Of a stretch of 64,000 bases of DNA, positions 4,751-46,351 are shown in pieces. The stretch lies in assembly GCF_024713945.1 (NCBI RefSeq), contig NW_027461521.1:64501-128500 (forward strand), written 5' to 3'. The position numbers were made by a program, and so were the translations under genes. The number at the start of each line of letters is the position of its first letter. Position 1 is the first letter of the stretch. The notes beneath the pieces are model-generated. The model had not been told where the DNA came from. It saw only the letters and a program-made list of their open reading frames with translations, and ran no database searches. Source of the stretch: Dermatophagoides farinae (Eukaryota > Arthropoda > Arachnida > Sarcoptiformes > Pyroglyphidae).

Positions 4751-6034
4751 TTAGTTATTAGAAGAAGGAGAGTACATGGAATTTTGCATTTGCTTGAGTT
4801 CATTGTATTCCAGCTCGAGTTGTTCTTGCTTGGATCGGAATCTGCAACTCAAGGTGTAGCAAATGCTAAGAACGCTAATTGCAATGCAGAGCAGTACTTT
4901 TGCTCCAATCAACGGTTCTCCTGAAATGCCACAATCGACGATGATGTATATTATTGGTAGGGCAATCGCATACGCCAAACTTTTCAAAAGAGAATCGTAG
5001 TAAGTGATCAAGAAAGTGGTAAAAAATAAGTCAAACGCTAGGCAGAAAAAGTAGATCCACTGCTTGAAATTGTACGATTTTAACAATCCGTTTGCGAAAG
5101 GGTTTGGAGATGTATGAGAGAATGTCCACATTATGCATAAGTAGATAAGAATAATTAAGCTGCAGTTAGCGGTAGAACTGTACAAGTTGGATGAAACCAA
5201 GTCTTTTTTCGCAATTCTTTCGTTGACCATGCTGCTGTAAGTAGTCATGCAAACAGTAAGAAAACCCATGATAAGTGTGAACACGAAATCGTTTGGTACA
5301 GTACCTGCACGGCTCGTGGCAAGTTTTCTCAATGCTATCAGCTTTTCAGATCTATTTTGGTACATTCCGTACAGTTTGACTTTCCGTTCAGCTAACTGAC
5401 TAAAGGTAGAAGGAAAGCTGTAAAAAGACATGATCAGAATTGGAATAATTGAGATAAGAAGAACTTGAGAGGCGTTGTATCTCTTCTGATACAGTACAAT
5501 GGAAAACAAAACGGTTATCGGCAACTTTAGGTTTGCTATTAAACTCCATAATGTAGGTAGATTCGCAGTCCTGAATGTTCCTTGGACTAATTCTTGAACT
5601 ACATAAGGCACGTTAATGACGAACCAAGTACAGGTATTCTTGTTGAACACACAACGGGAAGTACCTATTATAAAACCGCTTTGAACTATGCTCATAATCC
5701 AACATCCAAGAAAAAAAATAAAATAAGAAATAATGGACGCTGCGGAAGGGTTGACTGATTGAAATGGATTTTCAGGAGCGTTGAATGATTTAATCAAATA
5801 TGATTGAATGACCTTGCTTAATATCATTGCGCACACAAACAGAATGTAGTAGATGGTAGATTTATTGAGGTACGACGAGATGTTTCCGTCTTGAAATTTT
5901 TTTTGCGCATCCATTCTTGCAATTAATTCTTCTTTTAACATGCTTTTATCCATAAGAGACTGGGCCGAACGACTTAGACGGCGGCGGTCTAACTTAGAAG
6001 ACGAAGTTTGACAACTTGTTCCAGTTGCACTCAT
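4751..6034 (-). CDS. Nucleotide-sugar transporter-like membrane protein (DMT superfamily)
   Basis: A 427-residue protein with a basic/Ser-rich cytosolic N-terminus (about 60 residues) and around ten hydrophobic segments. A middle stretch (NLPTLWSLIANLKLPITVLF, then a Lys-Arg turn and SQVLLISIIPILIM) has the spacing of the conserved core of SLC35-type nucleotide-sugar transporters, where two helices flank a short basic loop. Such proteins exchange activated sugars for nucleotide monophosphates across Golgi or ER membranes. It may instead be a CRT-like or other DMT carrier; substrate cannot be read from sequence. It lies in tandem with a second, much larger transporter of the same fold (139 bp apart in coding terms), suggesting an old duplication. 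Confidence 0.6.
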   Translation of the reverse strand: MSATGTSCQTSSSKLDRRRLSRSAQSLMDKSMLKEELIARMDAQKKFQDGNISSYLNKSTIYYILFVCAMILSKVIQSYLIKSFNAPENPFQSVNPSAASIISYFIFFLGCWIMSIVQSGFIIGTSRCVFNKNTCTWFVINVPYVVQELVQGTFRTANLPTLWSLIANLKLPITVLFSIVLYQKRYNASQVLLISIIPILIMSFYSFPSTFSQLAERKVKLYGMYQNRSEKLIALRKLATSRAGTVPNDFVFTLIMGFLTVCMTTYSSMVNERIAKKDLVSSNLYSSTANCSLIILIYLCIMWTFSHTSPNPFANGLLKSYNFKQWIYFFCLAFDLFFTTFLITYYDSLLKSLAYAIALPIIYIIVDCGISGEPLIGAKVLLCIAISVLSICYTLSCRFRSKQEQLELEYNELKQMQNSMYSPSSNN

Positions 6035-6172: not shown

Positions 6173-9100
6173 TTAAAAATTGTTATACAGTTTTTCGTAA
6201 TCTGCTGTTAATTGTAACAACTTTTGTTTTTCAGTCTTGCATAGTGAAAACGTAATAATTTCTAGCATAACAGCGGTGTATGCCAACAGTCGGAAAAAGA
6301 CGAAAATGTTACGTTGGGGGAACATGAAACAGAGTAGCAAGTAATTGAGAGTCAGTCCGAGCGATCCGTTCAAAGTTTTCCACAAACTATCCAAACGCAC
6401 AACCATCAAGACACTGGCGGCAGCACTGAAAAGAATTTGGAGTGGCCACAAGGCTACGAAAAAATTCCATTCCTTGAAGGGGAATTTGCTGGCAGCGTTT
6501 GAATCAGTGAAATATTCGAGGATGACCTGGAAAACGGCAATTATAGATCCAATGTATCTTGTCAAACCGAAGTGAGTCAAAAACGGCAAAGTGCTTTGCT
6601 TCATGTTAACTTCGGACCAAAGCCCAACGGCAACAGAAATGATAGATAGGAATTGAGTGATCAAAATTGTGATTGGAAGTGATAGTTTCTCACCCGTAGC
6701 TTTGGTTTTCTTCAAATGTGAGATGTTATGTTTGTTTTGAGCGGCTATTGCGTCATTTTCGTAATCAGAGTCAAATGGTTCGAGTTTGTATTCGGCGTCG
6801 GCCGATAGTTTTTCAACAGGCTCCGACGGTACAGTTTTGATGTATAGTTTTTTGTCAATCATGTCATTGTATAACAAAGGATTGTCTTTTCGTTGTTCCA
6901 GATACAAAACACCGTTTGCACGATGGTCAAAACCATTTTTTCCAGTTATAAATAAGTAAAGAGCAGCCTCTGAAACCAAGTTTAGCTTGGCAGTATATCT
7001 GTCAAGCTGAGAGATGAAGTGGTAAGTCGGTGTTTTATCAATATAGTTATAAAATGGAGCATAGTAACAATTAGTTATTCTGTCACCATCATCAGATGTA
7101 TCATTTAAATTTGGTTCTAATCGTTCTTCAGGTAGTTCTGATAAACATGTTTCCCGCAGTTGATTTACTTGGTATTCTGGTAGAAGTTTATAAAGTAGTT
7201 GTTCTAGTTGATGTTGTAGTTGAATTATTAGTTTTGTTTGCTTATCCATTTGGTTTAGTTGTTTTTGCACTTGTTGTAGTTTAGACATTATTACTTTTTC
7301 CTGTTCTGCTAGTTGTTCTAGCACTTGTACTGCTTCATGTGTTAGTACTTTTTTCTGTTTTGCTAGTTGTCGTTGTTCTTCATCACCTTGGGGTACCTGT
7401 TTAAATAGAAATTGTTGTTGTTTTAGTTGGTATAGCTGGTTAAATAGAAGTTGTTTAAACTCTAGATGTTGGTTTTGTAGTTTTATTAGTTCAGATGGGT
7501 ACATTAGTGTCTTTAGAAATTCTTTAAACTCATTAGTTGGTGATATGGACGTTAGTTGTCTTAGCGTAAGAGTTGAATATTTTTTTTCCATGGTTAGTAT
7601 TAGTTTTCGGTGTGTGTCTATTTGTGCTTGGAACTGTTCTAGTTCTTGTTGGTACTGTTCAAGTTTATGTTGTTGCCGTTTAAGTTCTTGTTCTCGTTCA
7701 ACTATTTGTGTTTGGTATTCTTCTCCGTTAATTAACGGGAAAGGTACACCTGAAATGTATGGTTTTGAAATACTAAGCATTGGTATGCGGAAATTTGTTG
7801 GAACATTATTTTCATTAGTTGATACTTGATAGAAAGGGTGATCTGCAAATAAGTTTTTTTCCAATGAATTTGATATTAATCGGGCGTTAGCTACAAAGTT
7901 GATGTATTTTCTGTAAGCTATTATATCTTTAGTATCAGAAGCGTCTAATTTTGCGAGCAACTTTTCAGCAGATTGGTCGTACCTAAACCTACCGTCTTTG
8001 TAGTACTGAAGAAGAGTTTTCAAATCCGGATCATAGGGGGATGAAAAGTTGTCCTGCGGGTTGTATACAAAAAGTGTTGTACGTACAATCCATCTGTATA
8101 TGTCCTTAAGGGCAATGTAACTAATTTTGTCCGTTCCTCCTTCTTGCTTGTTATAGTCCTCAATAACCTGACCGAATGTGGAGAAAAACAAATGCAATCT
8201 TTGCTTGACAGTAAGTCCATTGAACATAATTAAGGATAGTGCGGAGTAAAACAAGCTAAAATCTTCGTTGGGGTTGCCGACGATATTGTATTTCTCAACA
8301 TTATTGATAAAATTATCGATCCAGTGTCTGTTTTCACATCTCATGTATAAGTAGTAGTTTTCGAGATATAATGGTATGGATGTTTTTAGTGAATTAGCAT
8401 TATTATTTTCAGTTTGCTCATTAGATTTCGTTGATGTTTCTTTGTATATTAAATCGTTGTTCGTATTAAACTGTTTCAATTCGCTGTAGACAATATCTTT
8501 CACATCGTCAGGAACAGTGTAGGGTTGTGTTAATTCATGTTCTTGAAGTTGACTGCATAAAGTATAGAAGTTCATAACATCGTCAACAGACGTATTTAAA
8601 AGAAAGCTGTGAGTGAGTGAATGTACTGAAGAGCTTATCTTAGTCTGATGAAAATTTGTACCGAGGAATTTAGTAAGATGATTTTTCAGATCTATCAACT
8701 CAACTGAAGAAAATAATTGTTTTGGAGGACAGAAGTATCTTGCAAACAAGGCTCTGGCTGGTGTTTTAACTTCTTTAGGTTTGTTATGCAATAATTCGAG
8801 TATGAGACGAGAAGCGGTCAGGAACTTAATAGTAGAGCCGATATCGTACATATTTTGGAAAATAAGTTCGTTAAGTTCAATTTTTTTTTGAACCGGAAAT
8901 GGTGGCGTATTTATAAGTTTTTCGGAAGACGCGGAGGTATCCGAGGAGGGGGTTTCATTCAAAGAAGTTTCAGATTCATGATTCGATGGCGTTTGATATT
9001 GAGTCGTATCTGGAGTTACTGGTGTGTTCATTGTTTTAAACGAATGGTCAGTAGGTATTGGAGCGGATTTAGATGTGTCAGTAGCTTTTTCAGTTTTAGT

Positions 9101-9928
9101 TGCTACAATAGGTTGTGGTTTTTTCTTGGGAAGGAAATCATCGTAACATTCATACATGGACACACAAATTGTTAACATGATTGCCACTAACATAGTTGAC
9201 TGTAGGATGGACATCTTTCGCTTCAAAAAGAGGTAAGCGAAAACAGAAGTATACAAGATACGAGTTTGACTAAGTATTTTAATAGCTCCACCTGTTAAAA
9301 AAGACTGTAAATAATTACCAGCTACTTCATTGAAACCGAATCCTGCAGCTATTGGAAAAAAAAGTTTGCAATGTTTGTAGGAGAACATCTGCATCGAAAT
9401 TTCTTTACCGTGGAAAATTAAAGATAGTAAGAAAAAGATAACGGTACCAGCTCCGTGAGACACAAGGAAACGCATAGTTTTCATACCGGGAGGGGATCTG
9501 AGCCCCACCTTGTATTGATCGATGATATAGTCATTGTAAAGATCCGTTGCAGCAGACATAAACAAAGCTAACCCGACAGTACCTAAATTTGAAAGCATAG
9601 AGCTTTTTGCGGCTTTCTTTGCTTCATTTTCGTTACACAAGTCTTTTGTTTTTTGAATTAAAGAAAGTGACTCTTTTAGCTGACGTGTGTTTTCGTCATT
9701 GAATTTACTTGAATCATTCAAAGTGTTTTTATCTATAAACTCATCAAGAACAATCTCTGCGTCTGGGTTATATATGGCTGAGAGACGCACTTTTGATTCG
9801 CTAAGATTTGAGTTTCGTCTACTCTGAGATTCTAATTCAGATTGCAGCTCCTCTCTAAGTTGTTCTACAACAAGAGATTCACTAAAAACTTGGTTGTTAT
9901 TAAGATTTTCACACTCTTCTCTTGACAT
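6173..9928 (-). CDS. Nucleotide-sugar transporter-like protein split by an ~816-residue insert
   Basis: A 1251-residue protein. I start it at ATG 9928 (MSREEC); an in-frame GTG nine codons upstream is unlikely. Residues 110-262 carry about five membrane helices with the SLC35-like core (AIKILSQTRILYTSVFAYLF, then LKRK). Residues 1081-1230 carry the remaining helices. The roughly 816 residues between them are hydrophilic: a Ser/Thr/Pro-rich part, a globular helical part (about 330-700) and a Gln/Leu-rich coiled coil (about 735-910) before a mixed alpha/beta part. No stop or intron signal interrupts the frame. In DMT carriers the two halves normally meet through a short loop, so the insert projects from one membrane face. 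Substrate unknown. Confidence 0.65.
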   Translation of the reverse strand: MSREECENLNNNQVFSESLVVEQLREELQSELESQSRRNSNLSESKVRLSAIYNPDAEIVLDEFIDKNTLNDSSKFNDENTRQLKESLSLIQKTKDLCNENEAKKAAKSSMLSNLGTVGLALFMSAATDLYNDYIIDQYKVGLRSPPGMKTMRFLVSHGAGTVIFFLLSLIFHGKEISMQMFSYKHCKLFFPIAAGFGFNEVAGNYLQSFLTGGAIKILSQTRILYTSVFAYLFLKRKMSILQSTMLVAIMLTICVSMYECYDDFLPKKKPQPIVATKTEKATDTSKSAPIPTDHSFKTMNTPVTPDTTQYQTPSNHESETSLNETPSSDTSASSEKLINTPPFPVQKKIELNELIFQNMYDIGSTIKFLTASRLILELLHNKPKEVKTPARALFARYFCPPKQLFSSVELIDLKNHLTKFLGTNFHQTKISSSVHSLTHSFLLNTSVDDVMNFYTLCSQLQEHELTQPYTVPDDVKDIVYSELKQFNTNNDLIYKETSTKSNEQTENNNANSLKTSIPLYLENYYLYMRCENRHWIDNFINNVEKYNIVGNPNEDFSLFYSALSLIMFNGLTVKQRLHLFFSTFGQVIEDYNKQEGGTDKISYIALKDIYRWIVRTTLFVYNPQDNFSSPYDPDLKTLLQYYKDGRFRYDQSAEKLLAKLDASDTKDIIAYRKYINFVANARLISNSLEKNLFADHPFYQVSTNENNVPTNFRIPMLSISKPYISGVPFPLINGEEYQTQIVEREQELKRQQHKLEQYQQELEQFQAQIDTHRKLILTMEKKYSTLTLRQLTSISPTNEFKEFLKTLMYPSELIKLQNQHLEFKQLLFNQLYQLKQQQFLFKQVPQGDEEQRQLAKQKKVLTHEAVQVLEQLAEQEKVIMSKLQQVQKQLNQMDKQTKLIIQLQHQLEQLLYKLLPEYQVNQLRETCLSELPEERLEPNLNDTSDDGDRITNCYYAPFYNYIDKTPTYHFISQLDRYTAKLNLVSEAALYLFITGKNGFDHRANGVLYLEQRKDNPLLYNDMIDKKLYIKTVPSEPVEKLSADAEYKLEPFDSDYENDAIAAQNKHNISHLKKTKATGEKLSLPITILITQFLSIISVAVGLWSEVNMKQSTLPFLTHFGLTRYIGSIIAVFQVILEYFTDSNAASKFPFKEWNFFVALWPLQILFSAAASVLMVVRLDSLWKTLNGSLGLTLNYLLLCFMFPQRNIFVFFRLLAYTAVMLEIITFSLCKTEKQKLLQLTADYEKLYNNF

Positions 9929-23807: not shown

Positions 23808-25097
23808 TCACAATCCATACTTTTGTTTGAACCATTTGGATACTCCAACGCTGATCAGTATAATAAAGAGCGCAAAAATCGAAATAATATAAAAAGCGTA
23901 GTAAGAAGATTCAAAAGGTAGTCGGAAATTCATTCCAAAGGCGCCAGTAATCGATGTACTGACCGCTACGCCGACTGACATCATAGTACACGCGACTTCC
24001 CAAATTTGTATGGAGTTTCTCGAAACACTAATTTTATAATGAATTAAAGATTCAAGATTTAGCAAATTGTTGTTTAGGTTCAAAACTTTTACGGCTACTG
24101 TTTCGGCTTCTTGATTGATGTGTTCCAGTAGAACTTCGAGGTTTGGATTAATTTCAAGGTTTGAAAATTCTTCGTTGTTAATGTTAACTGAACTATTGTA
24201 GATAGCTGTGCAATGCTCTGGCATGAAATAAAGTTTGGTTAGTTGTAAAGTAAAAATTCGCTCGTCCGAATCGATTAACTCGTCTATCGCTTTATTTAAG
24301 TTATCAATATTAACTTTCAAGTATTGTATCGGTTCTTTGTAATCATAAATTTCTAATATGTGAGCTGCTTTCAGATAACTTTTTCGAACTACATCAGAAA
24401 TTCTCGAAACTTTTGCGTTCCACTCTTGAATTTTGTTATTATAATATTGAAAAATGATGCCCATAAGAAACTCTAAAAACTGCATCTCAAGTGGCATAAC
24501 CACGCACATAGGCAAATTGAACTCGTTCGCCGTTTCCAAAGAGTAAGGTTTGAAAATTAGGTTGTATTCAATTTCAATGAGTTTATTTTTTCTTTGTTTT
24601 TCGCTGTTATAGCTGTTCTCAAGGTTGCTGTTGCGCTCATTGTGTAACCTTTCATTTTCTCTTTCGTAATAACGCTTAACTTCTTCTATCTGTGTAACTG
24701 CTTCTTGCGTTATAATATCCAATTTTTTAGAGATCTCGTTCAAGTTGAGTTCAGAAGTAATCTTTAGCAATAATCGATCGTATAAAATAATTGCAGTTAC
24801 AGGATGAATCGATATTAAAATGGTGTCTTTTCTTATTTCAATAGTTGGAACTTGAGATAATGCATTGCAAAAACTTTGCTTTATGTCATTATAAGAAATG
24901 TCACCCCCTATTTTGCCATTAGAATGCGCTCTGATGCGTTTAATTAAATCAGAACTACTTAGCTCTTCAACTTGATGTTTTCCCCAGGCAAACTCAATGA
25001 CTTTGTATCGTTCGGGTTTATTACTTGGTTTAAATGATATTCCAACTGTTGGAAGTATTTTTTCTCCAAATAATATTTTGTTAGAATATGACAACAT
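23808..25097 (-). CDS. CorA/Mrs2-type magnesium transporter
   Basis: A 429-residue membrane protein. The soluble N-terminal two thirds are alpha/beta then long helical, including a charged helix (YYERENERLHNERNS) as in the CorA funnel. The C-terminus has the two adjacent membrane helices with the family's selectivity motif GMN (residues 388-390, in TGAFGMNFRLPF) between them, and a short basic tail. CorA-family pentamers conduct Mg2+ down the membrane potential. Whether it is mitochondrial (Mrs2), plasma-membrane or vacuolar cannot be read: there is no clear presequence. It is divergently transcribed from the Nuf2-like gene. Confidence 0.85.
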   Translation of the reverse strand: MLSYSNKILFGEKILPTVGISFKPSNKPERYKVIEFAWGKHQVEELSSSDLIKRIRAHSNGKIGGDISYNDIKQSFCNALSQVPTIEIRKDTILISIHPVTAIILYDRLLLKITSELNLNEISKKLDIITQEAVTQIEEVKRYYERENERLHNERNSNLENSYNSEKQRKNKLIEIEYNLIFKPYSLETANEFNLPMCVVMPLEMQFLEFLMGIIFQYYNNKIQEWNAKVSRISDVVRKSYLKAAHILEIYDYKEPIQYLKVNIDNLNKAIDELIDSDERIFTLQLTKLYFMPEHCTAIYNSSVNINNEEFSNLEINPNLEVLLEHINQEAETVAVKVLNLNNNLLNLESLIHYKISVSRNSIQIWEVACTMMSVGVAVSTSITGAFGMNFRLPFESSYYAFYIISIFALFIILISVGVSKWFKQKYGL

Positions 25098-27027: not shown

Positions 27028-30000
27028 ATGCACAGTGATTATACAACGAAACTAAGTGTTATATTAGCGGATATACCGGATACTCCTGGTTTTAAATCTG
27101 CATATTTTTTCAAATTACAACCTTTAGTTACTGAGCTTGTGGGTACAACCAAAAACAATATTGAAGCTTGTGATGCCGCTCTTTCATTAGGAGTTATAAA
27201 GAAGCTGGCGCCTGCGCTAATAAAATTCGCTGCTGAAAGTAATCTATCTGAAGTAATTTTAAACATCTTTTCTTCTATCATAGATAATTCTGCTTATTAT
27301 ACGGTTTCATATTACTCTAAACTAATTCAAGAACAGAATATGAGCCAAAGTATTATAGAATGGTTAAAAAATTGTGACTATGACGATCAAGTTTTAATTG
27401 AAAAAGCGATTAAGCTTGTTACTCCTTTTATTAATTCAGCTGCTAACCTAACTTCAAATAGTGTTCTTCTAATGGAAGCAACAGTCCTATTTACTACATT
27501 GTTAGTTAAATGCCAATTGTCACATTCTGTTGAAGCTACAATTTCAAAAATTATCTATAACAATTGTCAGTTAGATATTATAATCCCAGGTGATAAAAAA
27601 TCAGAAATATTGGATAACATTATTATTATATTGCAAAATAGAGGAAAAGCTCCAGAATATAGCAAAAATAAGAAACTGATTGATAATCTCATAAAATCAT
27701 TACCTAAATTATTTGAAAAAGCCGAACTGGGTCAAGCTACTCATAGTCGTTTGATCAATCTTCTTGAAATATTCGAAGCAGATGCTGAATACAAGCATAT
27801 TATATGTGAATCGATATTAATCGATATTAATATTAAAGAAGAATGTAGTAAAATAATAAATGCTATTACTTCAGGTGAAACAGGACCAGGTTTGACTTCT
27901 AAAATACAAAATCTAAGTTTAATTAGATCCAGCCCGGTTGCTATTGAACATATTGTTGAAATGAATGCTATAGGAACGCTCATTGATTTTGTTTGCGCAA
28001 ACGACGATCCAGTAAATAATATTTTAATTTTAAAGTTTTTAATTGAAGTTGCGAGTTCTAAGCTTTATCTAAATCATATTACTCAATTAGGTATTGTCGA
28101 CCCATGCTTACAGGCAGTACACAACAACTTATCAAAAGAGTATGCTCCAGAATTTATTGAATTCGTGGCTTGCCTTTGTTCAGACATTAATTTGGCCGAA
28201 GAATGTTTATCATACGATTCTTTTAACGCAATATTTGATGAAATTCAAAACGTTATAAATGCTAGAATAAACGCTAAATTATTATTATTACTTGCTGAAT
28301 TGTCTAAACACTATTCTTGTGTTTCTTTAGTTATGGATTATTATCTAGACGAATCTTTTATTAAAGCTATTACTTCTGATTGTTTATCGACTAATCGGCA
28401 GACAATAAAAGCTTTTACCACTATAAAGTCAAACAGTTATTCCCCAATTTATAAATCTGAAATTAAAGCACTCAATAAATTACTGCGTGACGGCCCTGTT
28501 TCTGACACGCTGTTAAAAAATTTAGCTAGTTTGTTCAACAGTTATTACACTGAATATTTTTTTCAAAATAAGACAAGTGAACGAAATTCTATAGAACTGG
28601 ATGCTATAGATTTAGCTTTTTCAATTGTTACTAATGAACTAGCAACTGCTGAGATACTTAATCAATGTATATCATTTGTCCAAACTTTCCAAGATCTCGT
28701 AAATATTGATACCATAAAACATGCTTTGACAACTTTTGTTGAAAATGAAAAAATCACCAAATCAGATTTGTTCAAGCTGAGTATTTTTTGCCACTGTTCA
28801 AATTTCTCGACGGCTATGGAAGATTATCCACAATTATTTCCTAAATTAAAAGCTTATTCAAAAAATTTCCTTGACGATCCAAACAAAAGAACACAAATTC
28901 CACTTATTTCAGCTTTGCTCGAAACGATTTATGCACTATCACCTCATGTTGGTCTTTCAACCTCGCTTAAATCGATTTTTGAATTTTCTACTAATCCTTA
29001 CTTAAAAGATCAAAAAAAATCCGCTCATGTGATTGAGATTCAAGATCTAATAAAAAATTCAATCAGCAAAGCTTTCAATAATATGGGTGACATAACTGAT
29101 ACTGAAATTAGAAAACTCATTAATCTACTTTCATCTTATATTTCAGACGCAAACGCAGAAGTTTTTATGTTTCTACTTATTATTAGAACTTCTCGTCTGC
29201 TTTTAGCATTTTATCCGGCGAACTTTATACCAGCAGCACTCGATCTTGATTTCATTGCTCAGATACATGATGTTTGTAGACTGAAAGTAATGAATACTGA
29301 GATTATCATGGCAGGTTATTCGTTTATGCTTGAATTACTTGAATCTGGCTATGAAAAAATTCAAGATATATTAGATTCAATAGGTTTATTAGCCAGTTTG
29401 GCTAAGGTTCAAAAAATTCATCACGGAAAAACTGAAGTTCAAAAACTTCTACAGAATTGCATTGAAAAATGTATGACACCAGAAAAGAAAGCAGAAAGAA
29501 TCGAAGAATGTATAGTTCTTATAGATAGAACTCAGTTAACAAGTAAAACTGTTTCAAAATTAAATACAATTCTTTCAGAGTTGAACACCTTGGTATTTAC
29601 TTCTTTAGATAGAAAAATGTGTTCTCAGAAAAATATTTTTAATTTACTACGAAAACAGCTACTTGTAATTCCTACAGTAAATTTAGATGAAGAAAACACT
29701 TTAGCTTTGAAAAATAATATTGCTGATTTATTGCTTAATTTACTGAAGAATCCTGCTGTAGTAGTGTACTTTAATAAATCAACATTATTAAGTTGGTATA
29801 TCGATGATTCTAAGGAAATATTAGGTGAAATAAGAAACAGAACCATGGGAGATAATCCTGTAGAAGCCTATGAAGAATTACTAAAAAAATACGATTTAAT
29901 CATCAGTAAAAGTTGCAGTGATAAAAATAATATTGCTAATAAATTTTCTTCCGAACAGATCGAAATTGTCAATGATTTGTTGAATACTCTTTTAGATTTA

Positions 30001-33000
30001 AATGATTTCACACCCGAACAACTTGAATTATCTCTAAACATTTGCAATTTCGGCTCAACAACACCAGAAATAGATCAAAAACTTATAAACAATATTTGTT
30101 CAATATTACAGTTAGTTCAACCTTCAGATACAGAAAATCTGATAAACATTATTAATTATTGTTCAACAAACAAATCTCTAAACGAAGCATTATGCAAAGC
30201 GTTACCGACATCTACGATACTCGAAATGCTCAATTATTCACAAAACCCTAGTGAAGTCGAAGTACTTAGTTCTTTATTAGAATCTAGAATTTCTGAGATT
30301 GATGCTGAAAATATTGATACTGTTGCTGCAATTTTATTGAACGCTTTAATGATAAATAAATCTCCTAGAACTATAGAAAGCGTTTTAAATGTACTCACAG
30401 GGGTGATCGACAATTTAGAATACCCAGATATTGTTTATGGAAACAGAAATATAAAAGAGATAATTAATATTGCGAAATCTTCTGAAAATGAATCAAGTCT
30501 AAGATCTTCTGTTGGTCATATTTTGAAATATATTCTTAATGAAGCAGATTTTGAAATGCTTATTGATAGTATTAGTCCTGATTTAGACGATGCAAGTCTC
30601 ATTGAAAATTTAAATGATATCGTGATGGCATTTAATAATTCTAAAATCGACTCTGGTGTTAAATTAGATAAATTTGGAGCTTTTGCTCGTAATCAACTTC
30701 CTATTTTACAAAATGAAAATACAAAAGCTCTTGTTAAAACAAAAATTATAGAATCATTAAGTGATATTACTAAGATAGTTCTAAATACTGACTCATCATT
30801 AGCTCCTGAGGTAGCAAAATTATTTACAGGTGATGTTTTATTCACCATAGCTGATATTATTAATAACATTGATTTATCGAACTTAGATTCTTATGATATT
30901 AAAACACTTTCAAGTGTAGCTAATATAGCATCTGTCTTAGTTGAAAATAGTGATGATCCTACAGAATTAGAAATTTGCAAGGATGTTTTAAAAAAATGTT
31001 TAGCAGCAGACGAAATTGTAGATGATTTGAATTTGCAAATTAACACTTCGAAGTTAATTGAATCAGCGTATCGGAGTAATAAGTATAATGAAGATATGGA
31101 CGAGATCTTCCAAGATTCAAAATACTATGATGAAAATAGGCCCACAGCCATTTCGCGAGGACTAAAGAAGTTAAAAGAAACAATATTGAAATATAACGAT
31201 GTAGACTCGAACAACGATATTTCTAACGCCGAATTAGATACGGCTTGTGAAAACCAATTAAAGTCTCTTATAGCATACTTTTCTTCACCAAAGGGAGAAA
31301 AACTTTCTAATGAAGAAAAACGTAGAATTGCAAAAGATTGCATCAGTCATTATGATAAGATCAAATCTTCTGTAGGACATTTAATCAATTTGCAAGCAGC
31401 TTGTGGCAATGATCCTGAAAACATAGCCGAGTTCGAAAATATTATTAACAAAATAAATGGAGATCTTGAACAGAAAAACTTCACTAATGTACAAAAAGGT
31501 AAAATATTACAAGAATTGTTAAACTTAGCAAGTGTTAATCCTGATTTGTTTATTAGTTCATCAGTACAGGATCTATTGGGTCGTTTAGCTGCTGATAGTA
31601 ATACCAAAATTGTATTAGATGATATACTCGATCCATTACTTAGAGCATCAAAAGTTAATCCGAAAGTTGCGAATTGTTTATCTACTACTATAATTCCTCG
31701 TTTAATAAAAGATAAGAAATTATTCAAATCTCCCAAAGAAGCAGAAAAATTAACAGAGATATTCAATAATCTTATTTCACATAAACTATTGGCGCAAAAA
31801 CTCAAAAAAATAGACGGAATAACGAACTTTTTAACTGAACTTTCAGCCTTAGCTGCCAATATCGATGGTTCTTTGATGAGTTTATCAGAAATTGCAAATA
31901 TCATTGATGAGACGGTTGAAACTAAACTAACACTAAGAGGTATTTTAGAATTTTGTAGAAATGCCGTGAAAAAGGACGATCTTGAATTAATAAATTTAAT
32001 GTTGGACTCGAGCATTTCTGAAATGGTAGACTATTTAATCCTCAAATCTAAAGAACTCTTCGCTGCTGACGCTGCTACCCCAGAAGAAAAAGAAGACGTG
32101 GTTATGGCTATTGAAGCTTTATATCTATTCACTTTAAACGAGGTTAATGTGGAATACTTAACTAATAACGGTTTAGATACAATTATACTTAGTTTATTGT
32201 CTTACCAATCAGACTTGGATGTTGTTAGAGATTCAATCAAATACACACATAAGATTACGCAACAGTGTCCAATTTTGATTATTTACTTCGAGGCCTATCC
32301 TTACCTTATAGGACGATTAGCCGAGTTACTAAACTTCGTTTACTATTATGAGGAATCTAATCAATCTGACGTTATTATTTCATGTTTAGATTTCATTGTA
32401 GAGTTACTTAAAGACAGAGTGCAAGTTGATTGTCCACAGTTATTAGAAATGGTTTGTATAATAGTGCATGATATAATTCAAAATAACAGTAGTACAATAT
32501 ATCTGCCACCATGTTTGAATATTATATCATCTTGTGTTTCAGAATCAAATTATAAGTTGATAATCGAGCACGATATATTAGTATACGTGATTTCTTTGAT
32601 TAAAGATAAAAGCATTGGAAATCTAAACGTATTAAAGCCTGCCGCTAAATTCTTTCTATCTACAAGTACGATTAGTGAATTGAATAAATTAGCTCTTGAT
32701 AACGGATTTATTAAAATTATATTCCCCTATTTATCGAGCGTTCAACTTCAAGTGCTTGAAAATGCTGAAACTTTAGCACAGTTGCTTAAATACTCTAGTA
32801 TTATTGTTATTAATTCAGTGCAAGCGAACAGAGATTTAATGCAATGTAAAGTTTTGCACTACATTAAAGATTTGTTAATCACAGTAGGCACGAAGAGTAA
32901 ACCAGAACTTATAACTCTAGCTTCTGCTTCTCTTATTTTCCTTTGCAATGCATCGTATAAACAGGATAATGTTAAGGCTCAATTTGGAAAAATCAACGGT

Positions 33001-34740
33001 ATTGAAGCTTTGTTTTGCTGTATTAAAGCTTACAATCAGGATAACCGGAAAGAAATACTTGACTTTTTGTCAAATGTGTTTAAAAGCATAATGAATTTAG
33101 CATTGTGGCCTGATAACGTAAAATGTTTTGTTAATTGTGGTATAATTGAAGTTATATCCCAAGTCATAGATTCTGAGTCTACAAACAGTTTGACCTTATT
33201 CGCAATTCGTTGTTTGAACAACTTCGTTGCAGATGCTAACAGAACAATAGCAAAAGCTTTTTACGATTTAATTCCAATAATAATTCGCATTGGAATAAAA
33301 GCTTACAAGTCATCAAATCACGAGTTAGCTACAGAAGTTTTGTCATTCGTATCTCAGATGAGTCAATTCGATGATAATGCGGTTGTTTGCGTCGACGCGT
33401 TAGACATAGGATTCGATCTTCTTCGCACTAACTATTCGCAGTATGTTGAATCATTAGTAATTTCATTGATTTCTTCTTTAGCTATGTGTAATGATTTAGG
33501 CGAAGATTTATGTAACACGACTGCGTTTGATTGCATACTTGAGATCATAGTGTACGGAACGGAAGCAAATAAGATCAAAGCGGCCGGTGCCTTAATAAAG
33601 ATGATGAAGACTACTAATGGGATGAGAAAATATTTGGAATATGAATGTCCAGAAGTTATTGCGCAGTTGATCATTAAAAACACCTATTTGCAAAACATTC
33701 GTATGTTTGTAGCGATATTAATATATTCCTTCAATTATATGTTGAAGAATCCCGAGGAATCTTTAGTTCAAGAAATAGAATTTGATTCGTACTACTCAGG
33801 TGTTCCAAATAATTTGAAATTTAGAGAAACAGGGCCTGTATATGCTAGTCTGGGATTTTCGTCTGAAACAGTGTATTTACTTTTGCTTGCGTTGACTTAC
33901 CGAATCAAGGAAAACAAAAACTTAATGGAGCAAAATCTGATGTTATTAGCATTGATAGATTTTATAGTCAGTGAGAAAACTTACGACACGGTTAACTATA
34001 TATTCGACTCTGGAATATATACGTATGTGGCCCCTTTAATATCTATGGACGATACCAGTAAGGAAATGTCTCATTACGTTGCAAAGATTTCCGCGAATAA
34101 TTTGCTAGTGATCGATGAATCGAACTTGGGATTGTTGCAGGACTATAGATCTTGTTTCGATTCGATATTTATTCCATGGACAGCACACGGTCTGAGAGAT
34201 AGAAAGCGAAAAACATTCTGCCGTGATATTTACGCATTATTAAACCAAATTGCAGAAACTGAAGTTTTGAACAGACTGGAGTTGCTCAATTATCAAACTC
34301 TGGGTGAGGAAATAGTTCAGTTCGATTTGTTCCAAGACAATTTTGTTCACAATTTTAATTCCATGCCTGTTAAGGTAAAGAACAAATTAAGAACGGGAGG
34401 AAAAGTCACCTATTATCCTAACGATTTTTCAGCGCCAGTAGTTGCAGTTTGGAAAGCTTCAATCGATCTAGTATCGTTTTTCATATATGTAGAAGACGAA
34501 TGTGTGTTTTCCAAAAATATTTTCAGGTTGACTCGTATTGACAACAACGCTTTGCGAAGTGCAGTTTTTCAGGAACATTCGAATAATAAAGTATTTTCGA
34601 AAAACGAAGGTTGCTGTGTTTACATGCAGTTTAACAACGATCCAGTTTATTCAGTATCTCTCACTTTTAAGAATCAATCAGACGCCCAGGACTTTGTGTC
34701 ATTAATAGTTCAATGGAAAGAAGTATCTAATCGAATGTAA
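27028..34740 (+). CDS. Giant ARM/HEAT-like solenoid protein with C-terminal PH-like segment
   Basis: A 2570-residue intronless protein starting at ATG 27028. Nearly the whole length is repeating helical hairpins rich in Leu/Ile/Asn with armadillo spacing (for example LLQNCIEKC, ILKYILNEA, VLSFVSQMSQ). Around residues 1370-1430 a charged, less repetitive linker separates two solenoid blocks. The last 140 residues (2427-2569) are beta-rich, with LRTGGKVTYYP, VAVWKASIDLVSFFIY, IFRLTRI and a terminal helix, a pattern resembling a PH-like domain. No ATPase or kinase motif is seen. Solenoids of this size serve as scaffolds or adaptors; the exact family is not recognised. It is the longest gene in the window. 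Confidence 0.8.
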   Translation: MHSDYTTKLSVILADIPDTPGFKSAYFFKLQPLVTELVGTTKNNIEACDAALSLGVIKKLAPALIKFAAESNLSEVILNIFSSIIDNSAYYTVSYYSKLIQEQNMSQSIIEWLKNCDYDDQVLIEKAIKLVTPFINSAANLTSNSVLLMEATVLFTTLLVKCQLSHSVEATISKIIYNNCQLDIIIPGDKKSEILDNIIIILQNRGKAPEYSKNKKLIDNLIKSLPKLFEKAELGQATHSRLINLLEIFEADAEYKHIICESILIDINIKEECSKIINAITSGETGPGLTSKIQNLSLIRSSPVAIEHIVEMNAIGTLIDFVCANDDPVNNILILKFLIEVASSKLYLNHITQLGIVDPCLQAVHNNLSKEYAPEFIEFVACLCSDINLAEECLSYDSFNAIFDEIQNVINARINAKLLLLLAELSKHYSCVSLVMDYYLDESFIKAITSDCLSTNRQTIKAFTTIKSNSYSPIYKSEIKALNKLLRDGPVSDTLLKNLASLFNSYYTEYFFQNKTSERNSIELDAIDLAFSIVTNELATAEILNQCISFVQTFQDLVNIDTIKHALTTFVENEKITKSDLFKLSIFCHCSNFSTAMEDYPQLFPKLKAYSKNFLDDPNKRTQIPLISALLETIYALSPHVGLSTSLKSIFEFSTNPYLKDQKKSAHVIEIQDLIKNSISKAFNNMGDITDTEIRKLINLLSSYISDANAEVFMFLLIIRTSRLLLAFYPANFIPAALDLDFIAQIHDVCRLKVMNTEIIMAGYSFMLELLESGYEKIQDILDSIGLLASLAKVQKIHHGKTEVQKLLQNCIEKCMTPEKKAERIEECIVLIDRTQLTSKTVSKLNTILSELNTLVFTSLDRKMCSQKNIFNLLRKQLLVIPTVNLDEENTLALKNNIADLLLNLLKNPAVVVYFNKSTLLSWYIDDSKEILGEIRNRTMGDNPVEAYEELLKKYDLIISKSCSDKNNIANKFSSEQIEIVNDLLNTLLDLNDFTPEQLELSLNICNFGSTTPEIDQKLINNICSILQLVQPSDTENLINIINYCSTNKSLNEALCKALPTSTILEMLNYSQNPSEVEVLSSLLESRISEIDAENIDTVAAILLNALMINKSPRTIESVLNVLTGVIDNLEYPDIVYGNRNIKEIINIAKSSENESSLRSSVGHILKYILNEADFEMLIDSISPDLDDASLIENLNDIVMAFNNSKIDSGVKLDKFGAFARNQLPILQNENTKALVKTKIIESLSDITKIVLNTDSSLAPEVAKLFTGDVLFTIADIINNIDLSNLDSYDIKTLSSVANIASVLVENSDDPTELEICKDVLKKCLAADEIVDDLNLQINTSKLIESAYRSNKYNEDMDEIFQDSKYYDENRPTAISRGLKKLKETILKYNDVDSNNDISNAELDTACENQLKSLIAYFSSPKGEKLSNEEKRRIAKDCISHYDKIKSSVGHLINLQAACGNDPENIAEFENIINKINGDLEQKNFTNVQKGKILQELLNLASVNPDLFISSSVQDLLGRLAADSNTKIVLDDILDPLLRASKVNPKVANCLSTTIIPRLIKDKKLFKSPKEAEKLTEIFNNLISHKLLAQKLKKIDGITNFLTELSALAANIDGSLMSLSEIANIIDETVETKLTLRGILEFCRNAVKKDDLELINLMLDSSISEMVDYLILKSKELFAADAATPEEKEDVVMAIEALYLFTLNEVNVEYLTNNGLDTIILSLLSYQSDLDVVRDSIKYTHKITQQCPILIIYFEAYPYLIGRLAELLNFVYYYEESNQSDVIISCLDFIVELLKDRVQVDCPQLLEMVCIIVHDIIQNNSSTIYLPPCLNIISSCVSESNYKLIIEHDILVYVISLIKDKSIGNLNVLKPAAKFFLSTSTISELNKLALDNGFIKIIFPYLSSVQLQVLENAETLAQLLKYSSIIVINSVQANRDLMQCKVLHYIKDLLITVGTKSKPELITLASASLIFLCNASYKQDNVKAQFGKINGIEALFCCIKAYNQDNRKEILDFLSNVFKSIMNLALWPDNVKCFVNCGIIEVISQVIDSESTNSLTLFAIRCLNNFVADANRTIAKAFYDLIPIIIRIGIKAYKSSNHELATEVLSFVSQMSQFDDNAVVCVDALDIGFDLLRTNYSQYVESLVISLISSLAMCNDLGEDLCNTTAFDCILEIIVYGTEANKIKAAGALIKMMKTTNGMRKYLEYECPEVIAQLIIKNTYLQNIRMFVAILIYSFNYMLKNPEESLVQEIEFDSYYSGVPNNLKFRETGPVYASLGFSSETVYLLLLALTYRIKENKNLMEQNLMLLALIDFIVSEKTYDTVNYIFDSGIYTYVAPLISMDDTSKEMSHYVAKISANNLLVIDESNLGLLQDYRSCFDSIFIPWTAHGLRDRKRKTFCRDIYALLNQIAETEVLNRLELLNYQTLGEEIVQFDLFQDNFVHNFNSMPVKVKNKLRTGGKVTYYPNDFSAPVVAVWKASIDLVSFFIYVEDECVFSKNIFRLTRIDNNALRSAVFQEHSNNKVFSKNEGCCVYMQFNNDPVYSVSLTFKNQSDAQDFVSLIVQWKEVSNRM

Positions 34741-45133: not shown

Positions 45134-46351
45134 TTATGGTGTGGTAAAACACTGCTTGCCTACACAAGGAGTTTCGATTACACCAACAGGTTCTGCGATT
45201 TCTTTACCGATACATTGTGTACCTTCCAGTCTCATTCCAGATTCACAGACAAATTGGGGTTGGCTGATGAATACACATTTATTTCCTTCTTGTCTGCTTC
45301 CGGGGGGACAGTAAGATTCAGATGCGATTTGCGATTGTGTAATACACATTCCGTCGACGAGAGTACCCATGTTACAAACGTAAACCGGTTCAAATATGTC
45401 TGTTTTAAAACATTTATCAATAGATGAACCGTTTATGCAAACTCGTTCGCTTGGGTAGGTAACTGATCGAGTACAGTAGGCTCCGTTATCATCATAACCA
45501 GCAGGACAGAATTTTTTAAGGAGGGGTGCCACGATATCTTGGCGTCTGCATTTTTGTTCAACTACAGCAACGTTGCTGGTAATGACAGGTTCCTTTACAA
45601 TTATTGTTTCTTCCTCGACCCGTACTGGGGCAGGAGCGATCTTTATCGGCACTATGGATGAATGGTGATGTCCTGAGTGGTTATGACCGTGAGATCTATG
45701 GGATGAATTTAGGTATCTCATGCCACCCCGGGTTTGATAGCCTCTGTGATGACCATGATTCGAGTGATAGTGATTAACTGGAACTCGTGTCGAGATCAGT
45801 AAAGGCTTTGTAGTTTCGGTGACAGTTTTAGTTACAATTTTAGGAGTTAGAAGAGGAGGTGCTTCTGGGCTGCAATCATACTCACTAATCTTGGTACATG
45901 CATCTCCCTCGTTGTAGAATCCAGGAGGACATTCAATTTGTTCCAACTTGGAAACCTTTTCGATGTCAACACAACTACCGTTTGGAGCGAGTTTTCCTTT
46001 CAAACACGTGTTGACGATTTCTAACGGACGCATAGCTTTACATTGCTGTAGTTCTAAGTTCGTTCCTGGCGGACAAACTTGAACTGCTTCGCTCATTACT
46101 TGAGTTACGCAAACGCCTCCTTGCATTGTTGACCCTTCAGGACAGTGTTTTAGGGCTGGTGTTGAAGCTAGACACACACCATCCACAAGCTCACCGTTCA
46201 TGCAAACGGGCATTGATGGTTTAAAAACTGTTCCTACGCATTTTTTCCCCGTCAATGTCATGTTTGGGGGACAACCAATGTTTGGCGTCAAAAGAAATTC
46301 ACCTGCCTTAACAGCTGATAAAATCGTAAATAAATGCAAATATTGTCTCAT
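45134..46351 (-). CDS. Cys-rich secreted protein, oocyst-wall-protein-like
   Basis: A 405-residue protein starting at ATG 46351 with a signal peptide (MRQYLHLFTILSAVKAG). Two Cys-rich blocks (residues about 27-160 and 265-400) consist of repeated units of 10-25 residues of the form CPPG....G..C (CPPNMTLTGKKC, CPEGSTMQGGVC, CPPGSRQEGNKC, CESGMRLEGTQC). This is the layout of the COWP/OWP family that builds the Cryptosporidium and coccidian oocyst wall through disulfide networks. Between the blocks lies a linker with Thr/Val-rich ends and a His-rich stretch (about 190-235, with HYHSNHGHH and HGHNHSGHHH). No membrane anchor. The mate upstream, 1.15 kb away, is another secreted protein on the same strand. 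A generic Cys-rich wall or matrix protein is the alternative. Confidence 0.75.
   Translation of the reverse strand: MRQYLHLFTILSAVKAGEFLLTPNIGCPPNMTLTGKKCVGTVFKPSMPVCMNGELVDGVCLASTPALKHCPEGSTMQGGVCVTQVMSEAVQVCPPGTNLELQQCKAMRPLEIVNTCLKGKLAPNGSCVDIEKVSKLEQIECPPGFYNEGDACTKISEYDCSPEAPPLLTPKIVTKTVTETTKPLLISTRVPVNHYHSNHGHHRGYQTRGGMRYLNSSHRSHGHNHSGHHHSSIVPIKIAPAPVRVEEETIIVKEPVITSNVAVVEQKCRRQDIVAPLLKKFCPAGYDDNGAYCTRSVTYPSERVCINGSSIDKCFKTDIFEPVYVCNMGTLVDGMCITQSQIASESYCPPGSRQEGNKCVFISQPQFVCESGMRLEGTQCIGKEIAEPVGVIETPCVGKQCFTTP

Follow-up and report, generated by a model that had tools for sequence, protein, structure and literature searches.

The open reading frame (ORF) at 6173-9928 on the minus strand of the window, the whole stretch of 64,000 nucleotides analysed here, raises the question of whether a nucleotide-sugar-transporter-like protein carries a very long insert between its two halves, and if so, whether this insert is translated, on which side of the membrane it lies and what it might do. 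The contig looks apicomplexan, within a mixed assembly. As originally predicted, the frame is open throughout, with 1251 codons free of stops from the ATG to the stop codon. The following features are referred to below.

6173..9928, minus strand: whole ORF, split 5+5 transmembrane (TM) carrier-like protein of 1251 aa (six-frame and codon scoring)
9605..9928, minus strand: hydrophilic N-terminal extension, residues 1-108, expected to be cytosolic (composition, hydropathy)
9131..9604, minus strand: N half with TM1-TM5, residues 109-266 (TM cores, profile matches)
8894..9130, minus strand: insert part 1, Ser/Thr/Pro-rich linker, residues 267-345 (composition)
7724..8893, minus strand: insert part 2 of ordinary composition, residues 346-735 (390 residues), containing 558-574
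7094..7723, minus strand: insert part 3, Q-rich and coiled-coil-like, residues 736-945, GC3 0.17
6719..7093, minus strand: insert part 4, residues 946-1070 (about 135 by another count)
6173..6718, minus strand: C half (residues 1071-1251) with TM6-TM10, the first core of which starts at 1086, and a short C-terminal tail
4751..6034, minus strand: neighbouring gene for a 10-TM carrier-like protein of 427 aa with a TM5-TM6 linker of 42 residues, used for comparison only

Hydropathy placed five TM cores in the N half (111-127, 155-171, 187-203, 218-234 and 241-257) and five in the C half (1086-1102, 1121-1137, 1163-1179, 1188-1204 and 1209-1225), coinciding with the transporter halves proposed earlier at residues 110-262 and 1081-1230. 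The TM5 and TM6 cores are separated by 828 residues, compared to 12 in the comparison carrier L018, 20 in L013 (an ORF without TM1-2), 25 in L015 (a stop-to-stop reading), 29 in L016 and 42 in the window neighbour, which bears out the claim of an insert of ~816 residues in a mid-protein loop that is normally short. TM centre-to-centre steps of 44, 32, 31 and 23 in the N half seem close to 41, 33, 31 and 26 in the neighbour, and steps of 35, 42, 25 and 21 in the C half to 39, 38, 27 and 21. In 138 kb of protist-type DNA, comprising the window and 11 sampled loci with 60 ORFs of at least 200 aa, the gap of 828 was also the largest interior gap among the nine ORFs with at least four strong TM segments, followed by 344 (in an ORF taken as soluble), 201 and 183; the stricter TM threshold of this survey called 5 of the 10 segments of the 1251-aa ORF. 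The long stretch in the mid-protein loop is confirmed, and the 5+5 layout looks real.

Besides the ten TM segments with family-like spacing, of which TM3 and TM4 are weak (hydrophobicity 1.08 each), hydropathy marked four extra candidates within the insert (363-379, 558-574, 717-733 and 980-996). The segment 558-574 has a hydrophobicity of 1.46, equal to that of TM1, with TM9 at 1.42. We read all four as probably soluble, since a 5+5 pattern leaves no place for them; if 558-574 were membrane-spanning, neither the parity argument nor the 5+5 arrangement would stand.

The neighbouring gene lies on the same strand 138 bp downstream, has 10 TM segments and is the best single match of the C half (z 5.2; BLAST E 0.040). 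Both proteins have D-S-L-x-K between TM8 and TM9 (D-S-L-W-K in the C half of the 1251-aa ORF), but the neighbour lacks the insert, its 42-residue linker standing against about 815 residues. Its own family scores are below the cut-offs (best Pfam CD225, E 0.0022; TIGR00803 nst, E 0.012). SLC35A-type nucleotide-sugar transporters (NSTs; PF04142), exemplified by the mouse CMP-sialic acid transporter, appear to resemble the ORF in 5+5 TM layout, spacing and split site, and their TM4-TM5 region is where the ORF matches best, whereas they usually have 320-400 residues (PMC9368800) and the ORF has 1251, ~815 of them in the TM5-TM6 linker. For Toxoplasma TgNST1, an apicomplexan nucleotide-sugar transporter compared by description only, passages of the published account make no mention of a large insert, and the words 'loop' and 'transmembrane' are absent from its text (PMC3642066).

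The insert is a composite of four unlike parts. Part 1 is probably disordered judging from its composition, and part 2 is possibly folded. Part 3 contains 26 Q per 100 aa, the next highest value among the 60 ORFs being 13, and includes imperfect 21-bp repeats at 7617-7692; the coiled-coil evidence is modest, two of the 21 blocks showing a heptad contrast at uncorrected p values of 0.020 and 0.022. Composition, GC3 and codon usage are unremarkable at residues 346-735 and 946-1070. No known domain was found for the insert among Pfam or solved-structure matches, including parts 2 and 4. Solved-structure searches with pieces alone gave best E values of 0.72, 0.8, 0.47 and 1.2, and the whole protein, within which alone the Q-rich part was searched, gave 0.89. 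Residues ~553-612 look EF-hand-like by eye; this candidate was dropped, as the listed Pfam matches include no model of an EF-hand. The top Pfam match of the N-terminal extension was YabA (E 1.1).

A paralogous or mobile source for the insert was likewise rejected: in its own genome, residues 347-940 (594 aa) retrieved themselves and one chance-level match with E 6.2 (6 candidates scored). Own-genome searches with the whole protein (2 candidates scored), which covered the C half and residues 941-1080 too, and with the N half (1 candidate scored) retrieved only the query itself. Bacterial/archaeal and viral contigs yielded five pattern matches each and no confirmed relative; neither set includes eukaryotes, and these negatives say little. 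None of the searches gave a relative with a conserved insert, which counts against the preferred reading given next.

Our tentative preference, held at a little under even chances, is for an apicomplexan DMT carrier, nearest to the SLC35 type, with a lineage-specific loop expansion and a possible lumenal tether. The ORF would encode a divergent member of the DMT superfamily whose pattern is closest to SLC35 nucleotide-sugar transporters and in which the linker joining the two five-helix halves would have grown to ~815 residues. Both halves may still combine in the fold of a single 10-TM carrier, which would exchange a nucleotide-linked substrate for a by-product across an ER/Golgi-type membrane, the insert projecting into the lumen if the topology of the mouse CMP-sialic acid transporter applies. 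There it could form a tether in which a flexible linker leads into a perhaps folded region and the Q-rich coiled-coil-like part, the last of which could bring carriers together as oligomers or keep a partner close to the exit site. Golgi membranes are reported to contain assemblies of NSTs with glycosyltransferases (PMC6453868), which makes such a tether plausible. That the insert acts in this way is possible but rather doubtful, and an expansion that is long and tolerated but serves no particular purpose has about the same probability. The bolder version, a built-in lumenal scaffold, in part folded and in part coiled coil, that brings carriers or glycosyltransferases together at the exit site and so physically couples transport and sugar transfer in one polypeptide, we consider unlikely. 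No carrier bearing a large lumenal domain of its own was recognised among the titles and abstract beginnings listed for open-licence papers, which does not imply its absence from print. If real and lumenal, the insert would be specific to the lineage of a sparsely sampled apicomplexan, and would serve as a natural experiment on the tolerance of the TM5-TM6 linker and on the ability of a carrier to attract the enzymes that it supplies.

Apicomplexan proteins often accumulate long lineage-specific sequence. It is quite possible that in an otherwise ordinary carrier the TM5-TM6 linker, being permissive, gained such sequence by neutral or near-neutral expansion, with no dedicated function; this reading has the carrier part in common with the preferred one. 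Consistent with this, the insertion site corresponds to a linker that is disordered in the structure of the mouse CMP-sialic acid transporter (PMC6508934), and low-complexity regions are inserted in Plasmodium falciparum coding sequences (PMC11260460). The repeats and the low GC3 of the Q-rich part are as expected of expanding repeats, and the lack of a recognised domain in the insert points the same way. However, the ordinary character of residues 346-735 and 946-1070 is unlike that of typical low-complexity sequence, and the size of the insert is an outlier among the nine multi-TM ORFs of the survey.

Returning to the preferred reading of a DMT carrier nearest to SLC35, its family assignment is weak because the best Pfam matches lie below their cut-offs and close to chance-level matches of other families. 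The N half matched EamA with 19.6 bits (E 0.0012; cut-off 28.2) and Nuc_sug_transp (PF04142) with 14.4 bits (E 0.022; cut-off 27), while the unrelated families DNA_primase_lrg (E 0.042) and SpoVAC (E 0.082) came near these scores. EamA was the top match found for the protein, though below cut-off (E 0.0093 for the whole protein and 0.0044 in the own-genome profile search). Neither did the whole protein match PF04142 at E <= 1, nor did the ORF occur among the 10 PF04142 matches listed in its own genome. Against an HMM of four carriers, so narrow that the Pfam-recognised carrier L005 of the same assembly scored -5.0 bits, the N half obtained 15.7 bits over 43 residues (217-259; best of 200 shuffles 8.5) and the C half 2.2 bits (best of 200 shuffles 12.1), or 6.9 bits with the neighbour added (best shuffle 9.7). 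The two halves aligned in the right order, to HMM positions 122-162 and 198-329. In pooled Smith-Waterman comparisons, the observed sum was reached by 0 of 300 shuffles for the N half against N halves and by 2 of 300 for the C half against C halves, and in the crossed comparisons by 260 of 300 (C half against N halves) and 4 of 300 (N half against C halves).

The C half, which has no Pfam match at E <= 1, thus appears recognisable only by TM spacing and weak pooled alignment, and filing the protein under SLC35/NST seems only partly supported. The original description as nucleotide-sugar-transporter-like is borne out in part: the N half beat 200 of 200 shuffles, but no Pfam cut-off was reached and the C half responded in the pooled test only. 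The weak scores, together with the TM1-like hydrophobicity of 558-574, would also suit a receptor-like or structural DMT derivative or an unrelated membrane protein, perhaps with extra membrane segments in the insert, and yeast Ssy1 provides a precedent for a carrier turned receptor (PMC12958826). Given the 5+5 TM spacing and the alignment in order to NST-type carriers, we regard this alternative as improbable.

The insert had been predicted to be either cytosolic or lumenal. The mouse CMP-sialic acid transporter has 10 TM domains with both termini cytosolic (PMC9368800), and with the same placement of its termini the protein would project the insert into the lumen. The lumenal option is thus favoured provided that published NST topology holds, but flank charges, sequons and the hydrophobicity of 558-574 do not clearly support it. 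The insert ends carry 3 and 4 K/R per 15 residues, and elsewhere the excess of K+R inside (13/77) over outside (8/70) is only modest. The insert contains 4 N-glycosylation sequons versus 7.1 +/- 2.4 in shuffles, and 5 Cys in 815 residues.

It had further been proposed that the insert is translated or a very unusual intron, and the former is very probably the case. None of its 815 codons is a stop, whereas 300 Markov-1 simulations of the insert gave on average 52.5 in-frame stops and never fewer than 28; a second set of 300 reached at most 156 codons without a stop, whichever of the three frames was read. The remaining frames of 6173-9928 contain 85 and 117 stops on the same strand and 96, 56 and 86 on the opposite strand. 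Codon log-odds, a score that penalises stops too, ranked the ORF frame first of the six in all 16 blocks of 80 codons, and synonymous codon usage of all four insert parts falls inside the range of the other window genes.

The alternative that the true protein is a short carrier, the insert being a large intron or the result of faulty assembly, is judged very unlikely because of these stop counts and codon usage; moreover, the carrier-type genes L005 and L073 (contig C14) and L018 (C20) on small contigs are each a single open frame. This holds despite one strong donor-like and three acceptor-like sites within the insert and hints that the organism may have introns, since the eIF2-gamma frame upstream of 19612 hits a stop near the expected first exon. 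A self-excising intein would likewise appear as an in-frame, translated, internal insert, but this has a negligible probability, as no Hint/intein model was among the Pfam matches listed (insert at E <= 1; residues 347-1076 in pieces at E <= 10) and inteins do not usually sit in the loops of membrane carriers. We infer that the ORF product is made as one chain of 1251 residues.

The 1251 codons of the feature run uninterrupted from ATG to stop at 6173-9928 on the minus strand, as the original prediction of a frame open throughout had held, while the remaining two minus-strand frames carry 85 and 117 stops over this interval. Hydropathy placed five TM cores within residues 111-257 and five within 1086-1225, which agrees with the positions first proposed for the two transporter halves, and separated the TM5 and TM6 cores by 828 residues. 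The same spacing is 12-42 residues in five comparison carriers, namely those of sampled loci L013, L015, L016 and L018 and a neighbouring gene:

4751-6034, minus strand, second 10-TM carrier-like gene, 138 bp downstream of the feature, without the insert

Reviewed NSTs are 320-400 residues long (PMC9368800). Among 60 ORFs of at least 200 aa in 138 kb of protist-type DNA (the window and 11 sampled loci, of which L025-L027 on contigs C11-C13 were included mainly for their ORF density), the feature has the largest interior gap of the nine with at least four strong TM segments, at a threshold calling only 5 of its own 10. The layout is real, translated-looking and unusual, a variant of a known carrier kind.

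No stop occurs in the 815 codons of residues 266-1080. Markov-1 simulations of matched composition (n=300) contained a mean of 52.5 stops and a minimum of 28, and the longest stop-free run in any of three frames of a second 300 was 156 codons. By a codon log-odds score, for which 25 other ORFs of the window served as training set and which penalises stops and thus partly depends on the open frame, the feature frame was best of six in all 16 blocks of 80 codons, with slightly negative values in three. Synonymous codon usage, a measure independent of stops, was 0.073-0.109 for four parts of the insert and 0.027-0.148 for other window genes, the C half (0.014) falling just under the latter range. 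The insert had initially been proposed as either translated or a very unusual intron; the open frame and codon usage favour the former, and it is very probably coding. Its composition varies along its length:

residues 267-345, Ser/Thr/Pro-rich
residues 346-735, ordinary composition, GC3 0.35
residues 736-945, Q-rich, GC3 0.17
residues 946-1070, GC3 0.35

The Q-rich part contains 26 Q per 100 aa (runner-up among the 60 ORFs, 13), and its DNA includes imperfect 21-bp repeats at 7617-7692. Heptad contrast reached p about 0.02 (uncorrected) in two of 21 blocks, both within this part. Searches recognised no domain, structure or relative of the insert, some parts being covered only as whole protein, and found no relative showing it conserved.

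The N half matched EamA (E 0.0012) and Nuc_sug_transp (E 0.022) in Pfam, both under cut-offs and closely followed by the unrelated families DNA_primase_lrg (0.042) and SpoVAC (0.082); the C half had no Pfam match at E <= 1. The neighbour's family scores were also under cut-off (Pfam CD225, E 0.0022; TIGR00803 nst, E 0.012), and in its own genome it matched itself only. Against an HMM of four carriers from the window's own assembly (L013, L015, L016 and L018), which is small, mixed and narrow, its first three members sitting on large contigs taken as another organism, the N half scored 15.7 bits over 43 residues (TM4-TM5, model positions 122-162; best of 200 shuffles 8.5) and the C half, aligned at 198-329, 2.2 bits (best shuffle 12.1). 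With the neighbour included in the model, the N and C halves scored 14.8 (shuffles 6.1) and 6.9 (shuffles 9.7), respectively. The four-carrier HMM assigned 7.9 bits to the neighbour and -5.0 to L005, which lies on contig C14 and is recognised as a carrier by Pfam. In pooled local alignments to the five carriers (300 shuffles each), observed scores were reached by 0/300 shuffles for the N half against N halves and 4/300 against C halves, and by 2/300 for the C half against C halves and 260/300 against N halves. The C-half signal is owed mainly to the neighbour (z 5.2), itself under family cut-offs, whose TM spacing looks closely alike on direct comparison. Carrier identity rests on these modest scores: the feature is probably a DMT-type carrier, and its original description as nucleotide-sugar-transporter-like is partly supported, an NST being plausible.

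The mouse CMP-sialic acid transporter is described as having 10 TMDs and cytosolic termini (PMC9368800), so that by parity the post-TM5 linker would be lumenal; this linker is disordered in its structure (PMC6508934). K+R counts in the remaining loops of the feature (13/77 vs 8/70) lean mildly toward the N-in model. Against lumenal placement count the basic ends of the insert, its few Cys (5/815) and its sequons, fewer (4) than in shuffles (7.1 +/- 2.4). Hydropathy marked further segments within the insert:

residues 363-379, score 1.06
residues 558-574, score 1.46
residues 717-733, score 1.01
residues 980-996, score 1.06

We judge all four to be soluble helices, since a membrane reading would break the 5+5 pattern. 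However, residues 558-574 equal TM1 and exceed TM3, TM4 and TM9 in hydrophobicity in the same scan, and could be a membrane segment, against lumenal placement. Because of this equality and the neighbour's weak family scores, our confidence in the best explanation, a carrier with the insert as lumenal tether, is lowered from even to slightly less than even. Neutral loop expansion is about equally likely, and the odds of the two overlap because the carrier part is common to both.

The assembly comprises 22 contigs (62.4 Mb). ORF density, the fraction in ORFs of at least 150 codons in one 6-10 kb sample per small contig, was 0.69-0.99 in C11, C12 and C14-C21 and 0.46 in C13; sampled large contigs were less dense (C1 0.30, C5 0.24, C9 0.00), except C10 (0.70). 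Among the matches listed, alveolin/IMC occurred on C14 alone (E 1.4e-6) and AP2 four times, on C19, C16, C14 and C11 (the last under cut-off); each model also matches in 1/14 prokaryote control genomes. Of 20 contig ends viewed, two, both of them starts (C14 and C16), showed short TTTAGGG-type runs. From these sequence features we take C18, on which the window lies, to be apicomplexan and the assembly to be mixed; the larger contigs would belong to another eukaryote, perhaps the host. Since C11-C21 total about 3.6 Mb with few telomere-like ends, the apicomplexan genome is probably incomplete. Assignment of C11 to it is uncertain, because its start (L053) has TTAGG-like repeats, unlike those of C14 and C16. 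The first 1500 bases of C18 (L065) read N throughout, which may reflect a gap, masking or withholding.

Other genes were noticed in passing:

23808-25097, minus strand, relative of CorA-like magnesium channels whose GMN motif lies close to the C terminus; its Pfam CorA score of 24.6 bits (E 1.9e-5) falls short of the cut-off, 27
27028-34740, plus strand, ORF of 2570 aa that looks repeat-like by eye and matches nothing in Pfam at E <= 1
45134-46351, minus strand, Cys-rich protein, apparently secreted, in which CPxG...C units recur (best Pfam E 0.087) and which we take to resemble oocyst wall proteins
L018 (contig C20) from 592 onward, plus strand, 290-aa Cys-rich ORF adjoining the C20 carrier gene, with repeated units resembling the Lin12/Notch type by eye
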